Assembly: GCA_036226585.1 (NCBI GenBank)
Contig: CP108997.1
Location: 2,356,001-2,420,000, forward strand
Length of the DNA stretch: 64,000 nucleotides
DNA from: Streptomyces sp. NBC_00708
Lineage (GTDB): Bacteria; Actinomycetota; Actinomycetes; Streptomycetales; Streptomycetaceae
Reading direction: 5' to 3'
Below the pieces are notes generated by a model. It was not told the origin of the DNA, did no database searches, and worked only from the letters and a program-made list of their open reading frames with translations. Positions 40,777 through 46,163 of this stretch are shown here, one piece after another; position 1 is the first letter of the stretch, and each line of letters begins with the position of its first letter. The position numbers and the translations under genes were made by a program.

Positions 40777-40849
40777 ATGGGTATAGACCACTGACTTTGC
40801 GCCAACCCCTGTCCGATTCACCGGCGGACGCCAAGTGGTCTATACCTTT
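40777..40849. promoter_or_regulatory. Two inverted DasR-like (dre) sites upstream of the GT2 gene
   Basis: ATGGGTATAGACCACT (40777-40792) and AGTGGTCTATACCTTT (40834-40849) each match the DasR consensus ACTGGTCTAGACCACT at 13 of 16 positions, the second on the minus strand. Their 13-bp cores GGTATAGACCACT and AGTGGTCTATACC are exact inverted repeats. The second lies just before a -10-like TAGGCT (40854-40859). DasR represses GlcNAc and chitin genes and is released by GlcN-6-P. Confidence 0.65.
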
Positions 40850-40902
40850 GGCACTAGGCTGGGTCACCCGATACCGGGACATGCACAGCCGTGGGGGGCT
40901 TT

Positions 40903-42576
40903 ATGACCGTGCATCACTTGCCGCAACCTCCGTCCGACCGCGAGCTCTACTGGTACTTCGGGCCGCAGCGCCGCTGGGTCCTGATCAGTTCCTCGCTCGC
41001 CTTCGTGCTCACGGCGGCGACCATGCTCACCTTCGCCCTGCGCACCCCGGCCCTCTGGGCCTTTCTCGCGGTGCTCTCCCTGAACGTCGTCGCGCTCGCG
41101 CTCTCGTCGGTCAACAGCCTGCGCGCCCGCCGGCTGACCCGGCGTTCGCACGAAGTCCTCGTCCATGCCTGGAACCCGCCCGAACTGCCCACCGTCGACC
41201 TCTATCTGCCGACCTGCGGGGAACCGCTCGCCGTCCTGGAGAACGCCTACCGCGCGGTCGCCGCCCTGGACTGGCCGGACGCGCTCACCGTCTGGGTGCT
41301 GGACGATGCCGACAGCCCCGAGGTGGCCGCGCTGGCCGGCGCGTACGGCTTCCGCTACGTCGTCCGGCCCGACCGGGGCCATCTGAAGAAGGCGGGCAAC
41401 CTCAACCACGCGCTCACCCTGAGCAGCGCCGAGCACATCGCCATCCTGGACGCCGACTTCGCGCCCAGGCCCGACTTCCTGCGCCACCTCGTGCCGTATC
41501 TGGCCGACCCCGGCGTCGGCATCGTGCAGAGCCCGCAGTGCTTCGACACCGACGAGACCATGGGGTGGATCCAGCGCGCCGCCGGATCGGCCCAGGAGTG
41601 GTTCTTCCGGTGGATCCAGCCGTCCCGGGACGCGAGCGACGCGGCGATCTGCTGCGGCAGCAACGCGGTCTACCGGCGCGCCGCCATCGACCGGGCCGGC
41701 GGCTTCGCCCGGCTCGACCACAGCGAGGACCTGTTCACCGGACTCGCCCTGCACGCCGAGGGGTTCCGGACCCTGTACGTACCGGTGCTGGTCGCCAAGG
41801 GCACCTCACCGGACAACCTCGCCTCCTACCTCAACCAGCAGTACCGCTGGGCGATGGGCAACCTGCACCTGCTGGGCACACCGGTCCTGAAGCGGATGGG
41901 CGCGCCCTGGCGGATGCGGCTCTGCTTCCACGAGGGGATCGTCGGCTACCTGACGACCGTGGTGAACACCTTCGCCGCCCCGCTGCCGCCGCTCGTGATG
42001 ATGATCTGGTACCCGGACCACATCCGGCCCTGGCACGTCCTGCCGCTCCTCGCGCCGCTGTGGCTGTGGCATGTGCTGCTGCCCCGGATCAGCCGGACCC
42101 GCTGGCGGACCGAGGTGATCCGGGCCAACGTCCTGATGAGCGTCGCCGCCGGGGCCGCCGTCTGGCACACCCTGCGCGGGCGCAGCGCCGCCTGGGTACC
42201 GACCGGGGCCGGCGGCGGGAAGTCCGGCGCCCTGGCCCGCCGGGTCATCCTCGTCTCGCTCGGCTGGCTGGTCTGCTCCACCTCGGCGGCGGCCGCCGGG
42301 CTCGCCCTGGCCGTCGCCCGCAACGGCTGGGAGCCCAACTGGGGCCTCGGCCTCTATCTGCTGGTCCAGCTCCAGATCAACGTCCCGCTGATCCGGGACC
42401 TGCTCACCGAACTGCGCCCGGCCGCCGCGCCCCGGCCCGCCCGCGCCCCGCGCGGCTCCCGCACCGCTGTCCTGCCCCGGCGCTGGCCCGAGGCGCTGGC
42501 CGTCACCGCCACGCTCGTGCTCACCGCGCTGCTCGCGTCCGGCTGGGTCAACCCCATGCTGCCCTGGCTGAGCTGA
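40903..42576 (+). CDS. Processive GT2 beta-glycan synthase, cellulose/curdlan synthase-like
   Basis: A 557-residue membrane glycosyltransferase. Two N-terminal TM helices (about 25-65) precede the GT2 domain with the D,D,D,Q/RxxRW set: Asp134-Asp135 (DDADS), Asp183-Asp185 (DADFAPR), Glu275-Asp276 (HSEDLFTG) and QxxRW as QQYRW (312-316). Several C-terminal helices form the export channel. This is the arrangement of cellulose, curdlan and hyaluronan-type synthases that polymerise and extrude a beta-linked glycan. No PilZ domain is present. ATG 40903 follows GTGGGGGGC. It is 15 bp before an acyltransferase-GH16 fusion gene, and DasR-like sites lie upstream. Confidence 0.85.
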   Translation: MTVHHLPQPPSDRELYWYFGPQRRWVLISSSLAFVLTAATMLTFALRTPALWAFLAVLSLNVVALALSSVNSLRARRLTRRSHEVLVHAWNPPELPTVDLYLPTCGEPLAVLENAYRAVAALDWPDALTVWVLDDADSPEVAALAGAYGFRYVVRPDRGHLKKAGNLNHALTLSSAEHIAILDADFAPRPDFLRHLVPYLADPGVGIVQSPQCFDTDETMGWIQRAAGSAQEWFFRWIQPSRDASDAAICCGSNAVYRRAAIDRAGGFARLDHSEDLFTGLALHAEGFRTLYVPVLVAKGTSPDNLASYLNQQYRWAMGNLHLLGTPVLKRMGAPWRMRLCFHEGIVGYLTTVVNTFAAPLPPLVMMIWYPDHIRPWHVLPLLAPLWLWHVLLPRISRTRWRTEVIRANVLMSVAAGAAVWHTLRGRSAAWVPTGAGGGKSGALARRVILVSLGWLVCSTSAAAAGLALAVARNGWEPNWGLGLYLLVQLQINVPLIRDLLTELRPAAAPRPARAPRGSRTAVLPRRWPEALAVTATLVLTALLASGWVNPMLPWLS

Positions 42577-42591
42577 AAGGCCCTCACCGCG

Positions 42592-45540
42592 ATGTCCGCT
42601 CCCGCCGCCCCGCGGCCCGCACACCCCCTCCCTGCTCCCGCTCCCCGGCCCGCCCACCGGACGCGCTTCCGCCCCGACATCGAGGGGCTGCGCGCGTTCG
42701 CCGTGCTGGCCGTCCTCGCCTTCCACGCCTCCGTGCCCGGACTGGCCGGCGGCTTCGTCGGCGTGGACGTCTTCCTCGTCATATCCGGCTACCTGATCAC
42801 CGGGCTCCTGGTCCGGGAGGCGGTCACCACCGGCCGGATCCGGCTGGGCGAGTTCTTCGCGCGCCGGGCCCGCCGGCTGCTGCCCTCGGCGGCCGTGGTC
42901 CTGGTCGCGGTCGCGGCGGCCGGGGCCTGGCTGACCGTGCCGCTGCGCCGCACGGACCTGGAGAACGACGTCGTCGCGGCGGCCCTGTCCGTGGCCAACT
43001 GGCGGTTCGTGCACCAGCGCACCGACTACCTGGCGGCCGGCCAGGACGAGAGCCCGCTGCTGCACTTCTGGTCGCTGGCGGTGGAGGAGCAGTTCTACCT
43101 GTGCTGGGGCCCGCTGCTCGCCCTGCTCGCCCTCCTGACCGCCCGCGCGGTGCGCCGGGGCCGGGCCCTGCGGCCGGCGGCCGTCGCCGTCACCGCCGTG
43201 CTGACCCTGGTCTCCTTCGCCCTGGCGCTGCGCTGGACGGACGACTCCGTCTCGCTGGCGTACCTCGGAACGCCGTCCCGGGTCTGGCAGTTCGGCGCCG
43301 GCGCGCTGCTGGCGCTGCTGCCCTGGCATCTGCTGCCCGGCCCGCGCGTACTGCGGCTGCTGTGCGGGTGGGCGGGCGCGGGCGCGCTCGTGTGGTGCGT
43401 GCTGCGGTACGACGCCTCGACGCCGTACCCCGGATACGCGGCGCTCGTCCCGACCCTGGCCACGGCGGCCGTCCTGCTGGCCGGCGCGCCCGGCCGGGGC
43501 CCGGAGACGCCCGCGCGCCTCGGGGTCGGGCGGCTGCTCGGCCTGCGCGGCCCCCGGGCGGCCGGGCGGCTGTCGTACACGCTGTACCTGTGGCACTGGC
43601 CGGTCCTCGTCCTGGCCGAGGCCCGCTTCGGCACCCTGGACTGGCCGGCCCGGGTCGCCCTCACGGCGGCCTCGGTGCTGCCGGCCCTGGCGACCCGGCA
43701 CTGGGTCGAACGGCCGCTGCGGCACAGCCGTACGGTCTCCGAGCTGCCCCGGCGGGGCCTCGCGCTGGGCGTCGCCTCCGTCGTCATCCCGGTCGTCCTG
43801 GCCCTGGTGGTCGGCACCACCACGCTGAAGCTGCTGGGCCCTGCCACCCCGGTGGACCTGAAGGGGCTGCCGCCGGGCGCGGTCACCGGCCCCGCCCTGC
43901 TGGCCCGGACCGGGGCGCAGCCCGGTGACGGTCCCCTCGTGCCGAACCCGGTCCAGGCCCGGCAGAGCTTCCCGCCGGACGGGGCGTGCGAGGTGGCCCC
44001 GGCGGTGACGAGCAGCCCGCCTTGTCTGTTCGGGGCGGTGGACAGCCCCGACCGGGTCGTCCTGCTCGGCGACTCGCACGCGGGGCAGTGGTTCTCGCCG
44101 CTGCTGAGCCTGGCGGCCGAGCGCGGCTGGGCGCTCCAGGAGCTGGTGAAGCAGGGCTGCCCGCTGCCGGAGCTGTCGGTGGTGAACCCGCAGCTGGGGC
44201 GGGTGTACCACGAGTGCGACACCTGGCGGGCGGACAGCCTGGCCCGGCTGGCCGAGGGCCCCAGGCCCCGGCTGATCGTCGTGTCCTCGCTGAACCGCTA
44301 CACGGACGACGAGCGCGCGCTGCTCAGGGGCTGGGAGCGGACGCTGAAGCCGCTGCGGGCGCTCGGGGTGCCGATCGTGTACATCGAGGACACCCCGGCC
44401 CCGGGCCGCGACGTGCCCGCCTGCGTCTCCGGTCACCTCGCGGACCCGGAGGCCTGCGCCTTCGACCGGAAGAAGGCCCGGTGGCCCGACCCGCTGGCCC
44501 GGAAGGCGGCGGCCGGCGGGCTGCCCGGGGTGCGGTCCGTCTCGGTGAACCCGGTGCTGTGCCCGGCCGCGGGCCCGACGTGCCCGGCGGTCCTGGACCG
44601 GGTCCTGCTCTACCGCGACGACACCCATCTGACCGATGTGGCCGCCGTGGTGCTGGCCCCCCGCCTCGAACGGCTCGTCACCGAGGCGGCGGGCGTCGGG
44701 ACCCGCGACGGCCGGACCACCCTGCTGGACGAGAAGTTCGACGGCCCGGCGGGCAGCCGCCCGGCCGCCTCCCGGTGGCTGTACGACCGGGGCACCTGCT
44801 ACCCGGGCTGCCCGGCCGCGCAGTGGGGCACGGGCGAGGTCGAGACCATGACGGACTCCACGGACAACGTCCGGCTGGACGGCAGGGGGGCGCTGGAGAT
44901 CGTGCCGACGCGCCGTGACGGACGCTGGTACTCGGGCCGTATCGAGTCCCGGCGCTCCGACTTCGCGCCGCCGCCCGGGGGCGTCCTGCGCATCGAGGCG
45001 TCGATCGCCCTGCCGGACGTGTCGGGCGAGGCGGCCGGTGGTTACTGGCCCGCGTTCTGGACGATGGGCGCCGGGCTGCGCGACGGCTACACCGGCTGGC
45101 CCGCCACCGGCGAGATCGACGTCATGGAGTCCGTCAACGGGCGCGAGTCGGTCTTCGGCACCCTGCACTGCGGGACGCTCGACGGCGGCCCCTGCAAGGA
45201 GCCCCTGGGGCTCACCTCGCCCCGGCAGAAGTGCGCGGGCTGCCGCGGCGCGTTCCGTACGTACGCCGTGGAGGTCGACACCGCGCCGGGCGCCGAGGAG
45301 GTCCGCTGGTCCCTGGACGGCCGGGTGTACCACCGGGTGAAGGCGTCCACGACGGGCCGGGCGGCCTGGGAGGAGGCGCTGTTGCGCGGACAGTTCCTGA
45401 TCCTCAACGTGGCCATGGGCGGCGCGCTCCCGGCCGCCGACGGCGGTACGCCGGGCCCCGCGACGCGGCCGGGCCACCCGATGCGGGTCGACCGGGTCAC
45501 CGTGTCCACCCGGGAGGGAGCCGCCTCGGACAGGCCCTAA
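42592..45540 (+). CDS. Acyltransferase-3 / SGNH / GH16 triple-domain fusion
   Basis: A 982-residue protein with three domains in one frame. (1) Membrane acyltransferase-3 (OafA/YrhL type), about residues 22-390, opening RFRPDIEGLRAFAVLAVLAFHA and with SLAVEEQFYLCWGPLLALLAL. (2) SGNH hydrolase/acyl-carrier domain, about 455-700, with LLGDSHAGQW (Gly493-His496) and DDTHLTD (Asp676-Asp677, His679). (3) GH16 domain, about 710-975, with GEIDVMESVNG carrying Glu841, Asp843, Glu846. AT3-SGNH proteins O-acylate surface glycans; GH16 cleaves beta-1,3(4)-glucans. It probably modifies and trims the product of the GT2 enzyme 15 bp upstream. The three-way fusion is unusual. Confidence 0.85.
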   Translation: MSAPAAPRPAHPLPAPAPRPAHRTRFRPDIEGLRAFAVLAVLAFHASVPGLAGGFVGVDVFLVISGYLITGLLVREAVTTGRIRLGEFFARRARRLLPSAAVVLVAVAAAGAWLTVPLRRTDLENDVVAAALSVANWRFVHQRTDYLAAGQDESPLLHFWSLAVEEQFYLCWGPLLALLALLTARAVRRGRALRPAAVAVTAVLTLVSFALALRWTDDSVSLAYLGTPSRVWQFGAGALLALLPWHLLPGPRVLRLLCGWAGAGALVWCVLRYDASTPYPGYAALVPTLATAAVLLAGAPGRGPETPARLGVGRLLGLRGPRAAGRLSYTLYLWHWPVLVLAEARFGTLDWPARVALTAASVLPALATRHWVERPLRHSRTVSELPRRGLALGVASVVIPVVLALVVGTTTLKLLGPATPVDLKGLPPGAVTGPALLARTGAQPGDGPLVPNPVQARQSFPPDGACEVAPAVTSSPPCLFGAVDSPDRVVLLGDSHAGQWFSPLLSLAAERGWALQELVKQGCPLPELSVVNPQLGRVYHECDTWRADSLARLAEGPRPRLIVVSSLNRYTDDERALLRGWERTLKPLRALGVPIVYIEDTPAPGRDVPACVSGHLADPEACAFDRKKARWPDPLARKAAAGGLPGVRSVSVNPVLCPAAGPTCPAVLDRVLLYRDDTHLTDVAAVVLAPRLERLVTEAAGVGTRDGRTTLLDEKFDGPAGSRPAASRWLYDRGTCYPGCPAAQWGTGEVETMTDSTDNVRLDGRGALEIVPTRRDGRWYSGRIESRRSDFAPPPGGVLRIEASIALPDVSGEAAGGYWPAFWTMGAGLRDGYTGWPATGEIDVMESVNGRESVFGTLHCGTLDGGPCKEPLGLTSPRQKCAGCRGAFRTYAVEVDTAPGAEEVRWSLDGRVYHRVKASTTGRAAWEEALLRGQFLILNVAMGGALPAADGGTPGPATRPGHPMRVDRVTVSTREGAASDRP

Positions 45541-46163
45541 AGGCTGTCCCGCTCCCCCGCCGCCGCGAACGCGCCCCGGGCCAGCCGGTGCAGCAGGGCC
45601 GCCGTCTCCGTACGGCCCGGCTGGGCCCCGGGGCGGCCGAGGTGCGGGGTGGAGTTCAGCAGGCCGAAGACGGCGTGGACGGCGGCGCGGGCCTCGTGCT
45701 CGGGCAGGTCCGGGTAGAGGTCGCGGACGACGGCGACCCAGACCTCGACGTACTGGCGCTGGAGCCGGCGCACCCGCTTGCGGTCGGTGTCCCGCAGGCG
45801 GTCCAGCTCGCGGTCGTGCAGGGTGATCAGGGGGCGGTCGTCGAGGGCGAAGTCGATGTGGCCCTCGATGAGCGCGTCCAGCAGGGCCTCGGGCGATCCG
45901 TCGCCGGAGGCGGCGTCCTCGGACACCCGGAGCTCCCCGCCGGCCAGCAGCCGTTCGCTGATGCCGACGAGGAGCTCGGCGAGCATCGCGTCCTTGCCGG
46001 GGAAGTGCCGGTAGAGACCGGGGCCGCTGATGCCGACGGCGGCGCCTATCTCGTCGACGCCGACACCGTGGAAGCCGCGCTCGGCGAAGAGGCGGGCGGC
46101 CTCCCGGAGGATCTGCTCGCGGCGGGTGGGGGCCGCGACGCGGGCGGCGGCATGGGTGCTCAT
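45537..46163 (-). CDS. TetR-family regulator of the leucine catabolic operon
   Basis: A 208-residue TetR regulator: HTH RREQILREAARLFAERGFHGVGVDEIGAAVGISGPGLYRHFPGKDAML at about residues 14-62 and a helical effector domain. It is divergent from the carboxylase operon with paired operators between. Homologues in this position control acyl-CoA carboxylase/leucine genes and respond to acyl-CoA intermediates (inference). Its stop codon overlaps that of the convergent AT3-GH16 gene (4 nt shared), and no terminator separates them, so read-through antisense effects are possible. Confidence 0.88.
   Translation of the reverse strand: MSTHAAARVAAPTRREQILREAARLFAERGFHGVGVDEIGAAVGISGPGLYRHFPGKDAMLAELLVGISERLLAGGELRVSEDAASGDGSPEALLDALIEGHIDFALDDRPLITLHDRELDRLRDTDRKRVRRLQRQYVEVWVAVVRDLYPDLPEHEARAAVHAVFGLLNSTPHLGRPGAQPGRTETAALLHRLARGAFAAAGERDSL

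Follow-up and report, generated by a model that had tools for sequence, protein, structure and literature searches.

Synthase-dependent exopolysaccharide systems are the known kind of system to which the gene pair described here would belong. The pair lies in a 64,000-nucleotide stretch of the genome of Streptomyces sp. NBC_00708 (contig CP108997.1, positions 2,356,001 to 2,420,000 of the forward strand; this whole stretch is called the window below). It consists of a gene for a processive family 2 glycosyltransferase (GT2) and a gene that joins an AT3 membrane acyltransferase, an SGNH domain and a family 16 glycoside hydrolase (GH16) in one frame. New with respect to the known systems would be this triple fusion, its origin from a separate GH16 gene bearing a lipobox, and the exchange between GH16 and a family 26 glycoside hydrolase (GH26) in related loci. 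No publication on the fusion or on mixed-linkage glucan made by Streptomyces was found in the open-licence PMC literature, which was covered mostly by titles and the starts of abstracts.

The BgsBA system of Sinorhizobium meliloti, which makes a mixed-linkage β-glucan, resembles the window pair in having a GT2 without PilZ domain, and the cores of the two synthases are 40.9% identical over 235 columns. In contrast to the window GT2, BgsA stands beside a gene for an RND/HlyD-type adaptor, and the 10.7 kb stretch around it contains no acyltransferase or glycosidase gene. BgsA carries a C-terminal part that binds c-di-GMP, according to a section of PMC5567048. The BcsA cellulose synthases have the same fold as the window GT2 and are its best fold match, but the window protein has neither a C-terminal PilZ domain nor a BcsB neighbour and reaches 181.3 of the 699.1 bits that are the cut-off of the cellulose synthase model CelA; it is therefore not classed with them. 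Systems for acetylated cellulose (Wss) and clostridial cellulose (Ccs) reportedly combine a synthase with an acyltransferase or a cognate glycosidase (PMC10302187, PMC7710045). The window pair follows the same logic, but with acyl transfer and glycosidase in a single polypeptide. RiGT2, the mixed-linkage glucan synthase of Romboutsia ilealis, shares the D,D,D,QxxRW motifs and a Gram-positive host with the window GT2 but has a PilZ domain; this likeness is one of description, taken from part of PMC10374906, and not of aligned sequences.

The second protein has relatives of two kinds. The acyltransferases OafA/OafB and OatA have AT3 and SGNH domains with the same motifs, and the SGNH fold match (6se1) is shared, but the fusion has GH16 as a third domain. 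According to a review of AT3 proteins (PMC9558356), AT3 is most often fused to SGNH or alanine racemase, and in the portion of the review's text available neither "glycosyl hydrolase" nor "glycoside hydrolase" occurs. The GH16 endo-1,3-β-glucanase of Streptomyces sioyaensis (3dgt) was solved as a glucanase in its own right, whereas the window GH16, similar to it in sequence and fold, makes up the C-terminal part of a membrane acyltransferase. Endoglucanase H (GH26) is the best solved relative of the partner proteins in two related loci (L170 and L185); such a partner occurs in related loci and not in the window. The gene pair and its upstream sites are laid out as follows.

40780 to 40790, minus strand: distal DasR-type (dre-like) box, an exact match to TGGTCTATACC
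40836 to 40847, plus strand: proximal DasR-type box TGGTCTATACCT, with the exact core TGGTCTATACC at 40836 to 40846
40903 to 42576, plus strand: gene for the putative processive β-glycan synthase (GT2), ATG at 40903, TGA at 42576, 557 amino acids, no PilZ-like barrel in the model
42592 to 45540, plus strand: AT3-SGNH-GH16 fusion gene, ATG at 42592, TAA at 45540, single frame, 982 amino acids
42676 to 43692, plus strand: AT3 membrane acyltransferase domain, residues 29-367, Pfam PF01757 (4e-30)
43747 to 43836, plus strand: last long hydrophobic helix, residues 386-415, a helix in the model just N-terminal of the extracytoplasmic part
43987 to 44670, plus strand: SGNH acyl-transfer domain, residues 466-693, Pfam PF19040 (1.2e-28), GDSH at 493, DDTH at 676, fold match 6se1
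44725 to 45510, plus strand: GH16 endo-glucanase domain, residues 712-973, matching 3dgt by sequence (6.4e-80) and fold, GEIDVME at 840

We read this pair as a two-gene synthase-dependent exopolysaccharide system that would make an acylated β-glucan and trim it at the membrane surface with a tethered endo-glucanase. To this system-level statement, which leaves the linkage aside, we assign a probability of roughly 0.72. The GT2 would polymerise the β-glucan from a nucleotide sugar and export it through the membrane channel of the same protein. The AT3 domain would move acyl groups across the membrane, the SGNH domain would pass them to the emerging glucan, and the GH16 domain, tethered to the membrane surface by the same chain, would cut or release it. 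One protein beside the synthase would then transport the acyl groups, transfer them to an exopolysaccharide and cut its chains.

The sequence-only reading had described a GT2 gene followed after 15 bp by a 982-residue AT3-SGNH-GH16 frame with intact catalytic motifs, and open reading frames, Pfam, PDB matches and motifs confirm this layout. An alternative GTG start at 40891 would lengthen the GT2 to 561 amino acids, the form given in the list of open reading frames. The motifs of a processive GT2 are all present (DD at 134, DADF at 183, QSPQ at 209, HSED at 273, QQYRW at 312), together with a membrane channel. The model of the protein (pLDDT 85.0, pTM 0.83) is BcsA-like: BcsA structures match best, hyaluronan synthases and barley CslF6 stand lower in the list, and the C-terminal part consists of helices with no PilZ-like barrel seen.

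In the fusion protein, AT3 scores 105.4 bits against a cut-off of 31 and SGNH 101 bits against a cut-off of 27, and with the GDSH and DxxH motifs in place it qualifies as an AT3-SGNH acyltransferase. The AT3 motif HFWSLAVEEQFY is found at residue 158, and the second SGNH motif extends to DDTHLT. The AlphaFold2 model of the whole protein has a mean pLDDT of 79.2 and a pTM of 0.69, and its SGNH domain matches 6se1, the periplasmic domain of a Salmonella lipopolysaccharide acetyltransferase, with a TM of 0.66. The strongest stretch in a hydrophobicity scan (389-407) falls within helix 386-415, which would correspond to membrane helix 11 in the topology of AT3-SGNH proteins (see the parts of PMC9558356 and PMC9833829 that treat it).

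Pfam PF00722 did not report the GH16 domain, neither in the protein scan nor in a whole-genome search at E 1e-3, and the only Pfam match in this region is a sub-threshold one to SKN1/KRE6 (19.1 bits, cut-off 30). The GH16 assignment therefore rests on sequence matches to the PDB (3dgt over residues 712-973; 7eo3 with 4.1e-75 from residue 705) and on the fold match to 3dgt (TM 0.86 by target length), and annotation by PF00722 would miss the domain. Both the fold and the catalytic ExDxxE motif, here GEIDVME, are those of GH16, and the domain would hydrolyse β-glucan or, as the sequence-only reading had suggested, possibly act as a transglycosylase. Parts of the modelled GH16 region have a low local pLDDT, and the model alone is no proof of a cleft; the cleft was therefore judged chiefly by how similar the sequence is to 3dgt and less by the model. 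The earlier claim of an intact GH16 active site holds by this similarity to a solved endo-1,3-β-glucanase and by the conservation of the motif described next.

A frameshift or an assembly artefact as the origin of the fusion is rejected, since relatives have the same single frame, and the fusion can be regarded as natural, as had been supposed. By tblastn, 21 of the 246 genomes compared within the genus, the own genome among them, have near-full-length single-frame fusions with 72-100% identity; one of these (G074) has a TGA within the aligned stretch. Another 20 were found among the 79 loci kept from GTDB r220, every one titled Streptomyces. The resulting 41 fusion loci are not 41 independent genomes, because the same genome may be in both collections. 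In 39 of the 41, a GT2 gene is located directly upstream. The remaining two (L007 and L037) start 164 bp upstream of the match and look like the same sequence in two collections; L037 holds the tail of a GT2. A wider search for GH16-bearing proteins of 540-1718 amino acids returned at least 278 at E 1e-10 or better. Among the best 120 of these at least 278, 118 are annotated with AT3 and SGNH, and the other two (584 and 617 amino acids) have SGNH without AT3. All named hosts among these best 120 are Streptomyces or Kitasatospora, and the motifs are retained in 117 (GH16), 119 (GDSH), 118 (DxxH) and 116 (AT3) of them.

For the origin of the fusion, 31 more distant GT2 neighbourhoods (36-57% identity) were compared, the sources being other genera of actinomycetes and, within the same genus, four genomes with a diverged GT2. 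The fetched stretches are 11-18 kb long, and presence in a stretch is not equal to presence in an operon. A GT2 search gave 47 places in 41 of 296 genomes, of which 20 and a further 3 were fetched (the 3 being the Streptomyces fusions of G499 and G523 and a second place in G335); the own locus and G056 were fusions already counted, and 22 weaker places (E 2.4e-58 and above) lie outside the comparison. A further search added 10 new places, all of them fetched. Almost nothing new came from a phylum-wide search (matches in 5 of 396 genomes) or from the order of G326 (1 of 5).

In another actinomycete family (f17), GH16 is encoded in a separate frame directly after AT3-SGNH in four loci (L169, L221, L222 and L223), each time with a lipobox-like start. 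The Streptomyces fusions group with the f17 genes in the GT2, AT3-SGNH and GH16 trees (SH-aLRT 99, 96 and 98), and a branch (SH-aLRT 93) separates the fused GH16 domains from the others, in trees that come from short searches with SH-aLRT as the only support and with long-branch warnings (L187, L180 and L181 among others). Rows entered a tree when their match covered more than half of the query, which excluded L037 from the GT2 tree and L223 from the GH16 tree. Since the trees agree and the fused GH16 domains lie on one side of a branch, a three-gene operon GT2/AT3-SGNH/GH16 is likely the older form, and a single fusion event on the Streptomyces side would explain the data. The former GH16 lipoprotein gene of the operon would have been joined to the acyltransferase gene, which would have replaced a lipid anchor by a fused membrane anchor. 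What was retained may be the membrane tether itself, first as a lipid anchor and later as a fusion. One of the four f17 genes, the GH16 of L223 (about 6843-6502, minus strand), is without its first half and its catalytic middle, an apparent case of decay, and the GT2 and AT3-SGNH matches of this locus look intact.

Four Streptomyces loci (L052, L053, L055 and L057; S. parvus, PTY087I2, WZ.A104 and S. sindenensis) have kept GT2 and AT3-SGNH with a frame that stops after SGNH, and no GH16 was found by tblastn in these 14-kb loci. Because they nest among fused relatives in the trees, their condition is best read as loss of GH16, which occurred once or twice. In f17, L220 likewise has GT2 and AT3-SGNH without GH16. 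Loci with separate genes, with the fusion and with the glycosidase lost again form a natural comparison series.

Elsewhere the partner of the synthase is a different glycosidase. A GH26-like gene was detected in 24 of the 31 distant neighbourhoods, two of them weakly (L177, 1.8e-21; L178, 8.8e-16), with our own hidden Markov model (HMM), which was built from ten neighbours of the same loci, so that the count is not independent of the seeds. Pfam confirms GH26 in all seven proteins scanned. GH16 is found in six of the 31; L181 has both enzymes, L187 and L220 have neither, and altogether 29 of the 31 neighbourhoods contain a GH26-like or a GH16 gene. AT3-SGNH is located near GT2 in 12 of the 31, upstream in some and downstream in others. 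L170 has GT2, AT3-SGNH and GH26 in a row on the same strand and stands next to the fusion clade in both the GT2 and the AT3-SGNH tree (99 in each). Compared with the PDB, Endoglucanase H is the best match of the GH26 proteins (3.5e-25 for L170, 7.8e-38 for L185); the best differently named entries reach 1.5e-12 and 1.2e-10, respectively. Endoglucanase H is presumably the lichenase CtLic26A. Related GT2/AT3 pairs thus seem to employ one of two enzymes, a GH26 resembling a lichenase or a GH16 resembling a glucanase, and a mixed-linkage β-1,3;1,4-glucan could be the substrate that suits both. The GH26 partner, closest to a lichenase where tested, hints at a linkage that could not be read from the synthase alone. 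That the same parts occur elsewhere as separate neighbouring genes also lends support to the logic of polymerising, acylating and trimming that the sequence-only reading had put forward.

Some observations on these neighbourhoods stand apart. A PMT_2-like (GT-C) gene is found with our own HMM near GT2 in 17 of the 31 (L172, L173, L175, L177-L179, L182-L186, L224-L229), with weak matches also in L170 and L232; this glycosyltransferase may add a further sugar. L227 and L228 have three GH26-like genes each beside one GT2 gene. An Actinoplanes cluster with a GH26 gene (wps-1, PMC13390465) was set aside, as the part of the paper at hand gives it as a predicted Wzx/Wzy system.

The specificity of the synthase was assessed by comparison with reference sequences. 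The S. meliloti protein was identified as BgsA by five residue numbers published in PMC5567048 (from a part of that paper), which fit at offset 0. Besides BgsA, the GT2 core is 38% identical to a cellulose-synthase-like protein of Agrobacterium, 34% to E. coli BcsA and 30% to NodC, and over its full length the nearest reference is a Leptolyngbya plasmid protein (34% over 503 columns). According to a section of PMC6821405, cellulose synthases and CrdS/BgsA differ at certain residue positions. The window GT2 has Gln, Gln, Glu, Phe and Arg at the positions equivalent to RsBcsA 276, 298, 299, 302 and 309, and this pattern is identical in all 22 fusion rows. Four of the five are as in BgsA by alignment, and the Glu is as in BcsA; the comparison covered BgsA and BcsA, and no CrdS sequence. 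The product likely has β-1,3 linkages and is perhaps a mixed β-1,3;1,4-glucan. This mixed-linkage glucan is our leading guess, held at somewhat less than even odds, and a β-1,3-glucan, somewhat less secure, comes next.

A broader proposal is that actinomycetes have a wide family of mixed-linkage glucan synthase operons, each with a GH26 lichenase or a GH16, which in Streptomyces became a system for an acylated, chitin-induced surface glucan with one membrane protein for acyl transport, acyl transfer and chain cutting. We consider this proposal possible and hold it tentatively. Were it correct, mixed-linkage glucan, so far reported from few bacteria, would also be a product of actinomycetes.

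Several points weigh against our reading of the locus or against parts of it. Its support consists of genes, domains, motifs, conservation, the occurrence of the parts as separate neighbours, trees and boxes, and it is from these that we infer all activities, substrates, the export, the acyl group, the regulator and the importance of the anchor. The GT2 is only weakly closer to BgsA than to the other references, because the bit scores lie close together (BgsA 176, BcsA 164, Agrobacterium protein 161) and because two relatives (L171 and L172) score the Agrobacterium protein slightly above BgsA, as the best fetched reference after the cyanobacterial one. The specificity positions are mixed, with the Glu at the RsBcsA-299 equivalent being cellulose-synthase-like, and this signature decides nothing alone. 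The fusion GH16 is closest to an endo-1,3-β-glucanase, which fits a mixed-linkage glucan less directly than a β-1,3-glucan. GH16 is not essential to the pair, being absent from the four nested loci and from L220 and shortened in L223. Finally, there is a second GT2 lineage with GH16, far from the fusion clade in the trees and on long branches: L180 lacks AT3 and has, beside its GT2, a GH16 whose start resembles a signal peptide, and in L181, where AT3 is joined to two SGNH domains, the separate GH16 has a hydrophobic stretch at its N-terminus. GH16 has therefore either come together with this GT2 family on several occasions or been exchanged. In L181 (4626-8612) AT3 is followed by two SGNH-like stretches in one frame, the GH16 gene overlaps by 4 bp, and a GH26-like gene lies beyond.

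The alternative that survives best concerns the product. The GH26-type loci might make one β-glycan, mixed-linkage or other, and the GH16-type loci of Streptomyces and f17 a curdlan-like β-1,3-glucan, so that the product would have switched with the partner while the system otherwise worked as proposed. The similarity of GH16 to endo-1,3-β-glucanases would fit, as would the residue at the RsBcsA-302 equivalent, which is Phe in 22 of 22 fusion rows and, by alignment, in BgsA, but Tyr in 23 of 23 GH26-type rows. However, the f17 synthases with a separate GH16 retain Tyr (4 of 4 rows), and the other positions examined do not separate the GH16 and GH26 groups. We regard such a switch as less likely than not, although it deserves more weight than the alternatives below.

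The regulation of the pair bears on the other alternatives. The consensus of the DasR-responsive element (dre) is A(G/C)TGGTCTAGACCA(G/C)T, as given in an excerpt of PMC4398421. The two boxes upstream of GT2 are the only exact copies of TGGTCTATACC in the window; with up to two mismatches there are nine matches versus 4.03 expected by shuffling, and 2 of 100 shuffles reach nine. In all 23 related loci with upstream DNA (19 fusion loci and four without GH16) a related box is found at -61 to -137 from the GT2 match. The exact core is present in 22 of them and TGGTCCATACC in the remaining one, and a second, farther-upstream box with at least 9 of 12 matches occurs in 20 of the 23 (18 of these at 10). 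A 12-mer agreeing with TGGTCTAGACCA at 10 or more of 12 positions is present in 23 of 23 GT2 upstream regions versus 148 of 4600 random 300-bp pieces from the same loci, for which reason a chance origin was rejected; the 23 loci are related and not independent, and their GT2 starts come from the tblastn match.

The own genome contains 23 copies of the pattern TGGTCYAKACCW, including the one here, versus five of the reversed control. The other 22 sites fall in 18 stretches, 14 of which have genes probably of chitin or N-acetylglucosamine (GlcNAc) type near the site (GH18, GH19, LPMO10, glucosamine-6-phosphate isomerase, SIS with a solute-binding protein, or PTS EIIC). The remaining stretches contain a lactonase (L189), a GH25 (L201) and a site inside a gene (L203), and one (L195) was outside the domain scan. 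The boxes, which the sequence-only reading had assigned to DasR, stand up by motif: they are dre-like, conserved in relatives and common to chitinase and GlcNAc genes. DasR probably controls transcription of the gene pair together with the chitin and GlcNAc genes. If the mixed-linkage proposal is true, Streptomyces would produce this glucan under the control of chitin/GlcNAc, a point of interest for its attachment to fungi and insects and for the growth of pellets. The box of L201 (site G000:C1:5178128) lies upstream of the GH25 (lysozyme-type) gene and would link the chitin/GlcNAc regulon to peptidoglycan cutting.

These boxes, being common to chitinase genes, would also suit a GH16 that attacks foreign β-1,3-glucan, chiefly of fungal walls, in step with the chitinases, while synthase and acyltransferase serve a separate envelope task. 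Both PDB relatives, 3dgt and 7eo3, are named β-1,3-glucanases, and standalone GH16 relatives are found in many genomes of the genus. This explanation appears improbable, since GH16 is fused to a membrane acyltransferase and stands beside the synthase in all 39 of 41 loci able to show it, the separate GH16 genes of f17 have a lipobox and come after AT3-SGNH, and a GH26 enzyme takes the place of GH16 in related GT2 loci.

A target of the acyltransferase other than the glucan, for instance a cell-wall glycan or some other polymer of the envelope, seems just as improbable; enzyme and synthase would then have no more in common than their regulation and location. Among the NCBIfam models the fusion matches the SucT acyltransferase best, far under the cut-off (218 of 1275 bits) and hence without assignment to SucT, and AT3-SGNH proteins of about 35-45% identity occur without GT2 in short stretches (L027-L035). 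Against this stand the recurrence of AT3-SGNH on either side of GT2 in the 12 distant neighbourhoods, the agreement of the AT3-SGNH and GT2 trees for the fusion clade, f17 and L170, and a predicted 691-amino-acid JGI metagenome protein (P0215) with GT2 Pfam domains and AT3 PF01757, in which a single chain may combine synthase and acyltransferase. If the GT2 made a chitin- or PNAG-like amino-sugar polymer, the DasR-type boxes and GlcNAc control would fit, but such a product is very improbable, as the GT2 core is nearer to BgsA and the cellulose synthases (34-41%) than to NodC and the partners are a 1,3-glucanase-type GH16 and GH26.

The surroundings of the gene pair in this genome are conserved primary-metabolism genes. 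A gene for a TetR-type regulator (window 45540-46163, minus strand) is convergent with the fusion gene, and its end adjoins the end of the latter; the protein scores above the NCBIfam cut-off of the SACE_7040 family (277.9 versus 250 bits). The flanking phosphatase and TetR genes are present in only some of the loci that reach far enough, and because the flanks vary among loci, the gene pair occupies different genomic places. One other GT2 of the genome was found with this query (L207, G000:C1, about 2.60 Mb), with 25-28% identity. It is placed after a polysaccharide-deacetylase-like part in the same frame, an arrangement that we take to recall the MatA/PgaC kind of synthase.

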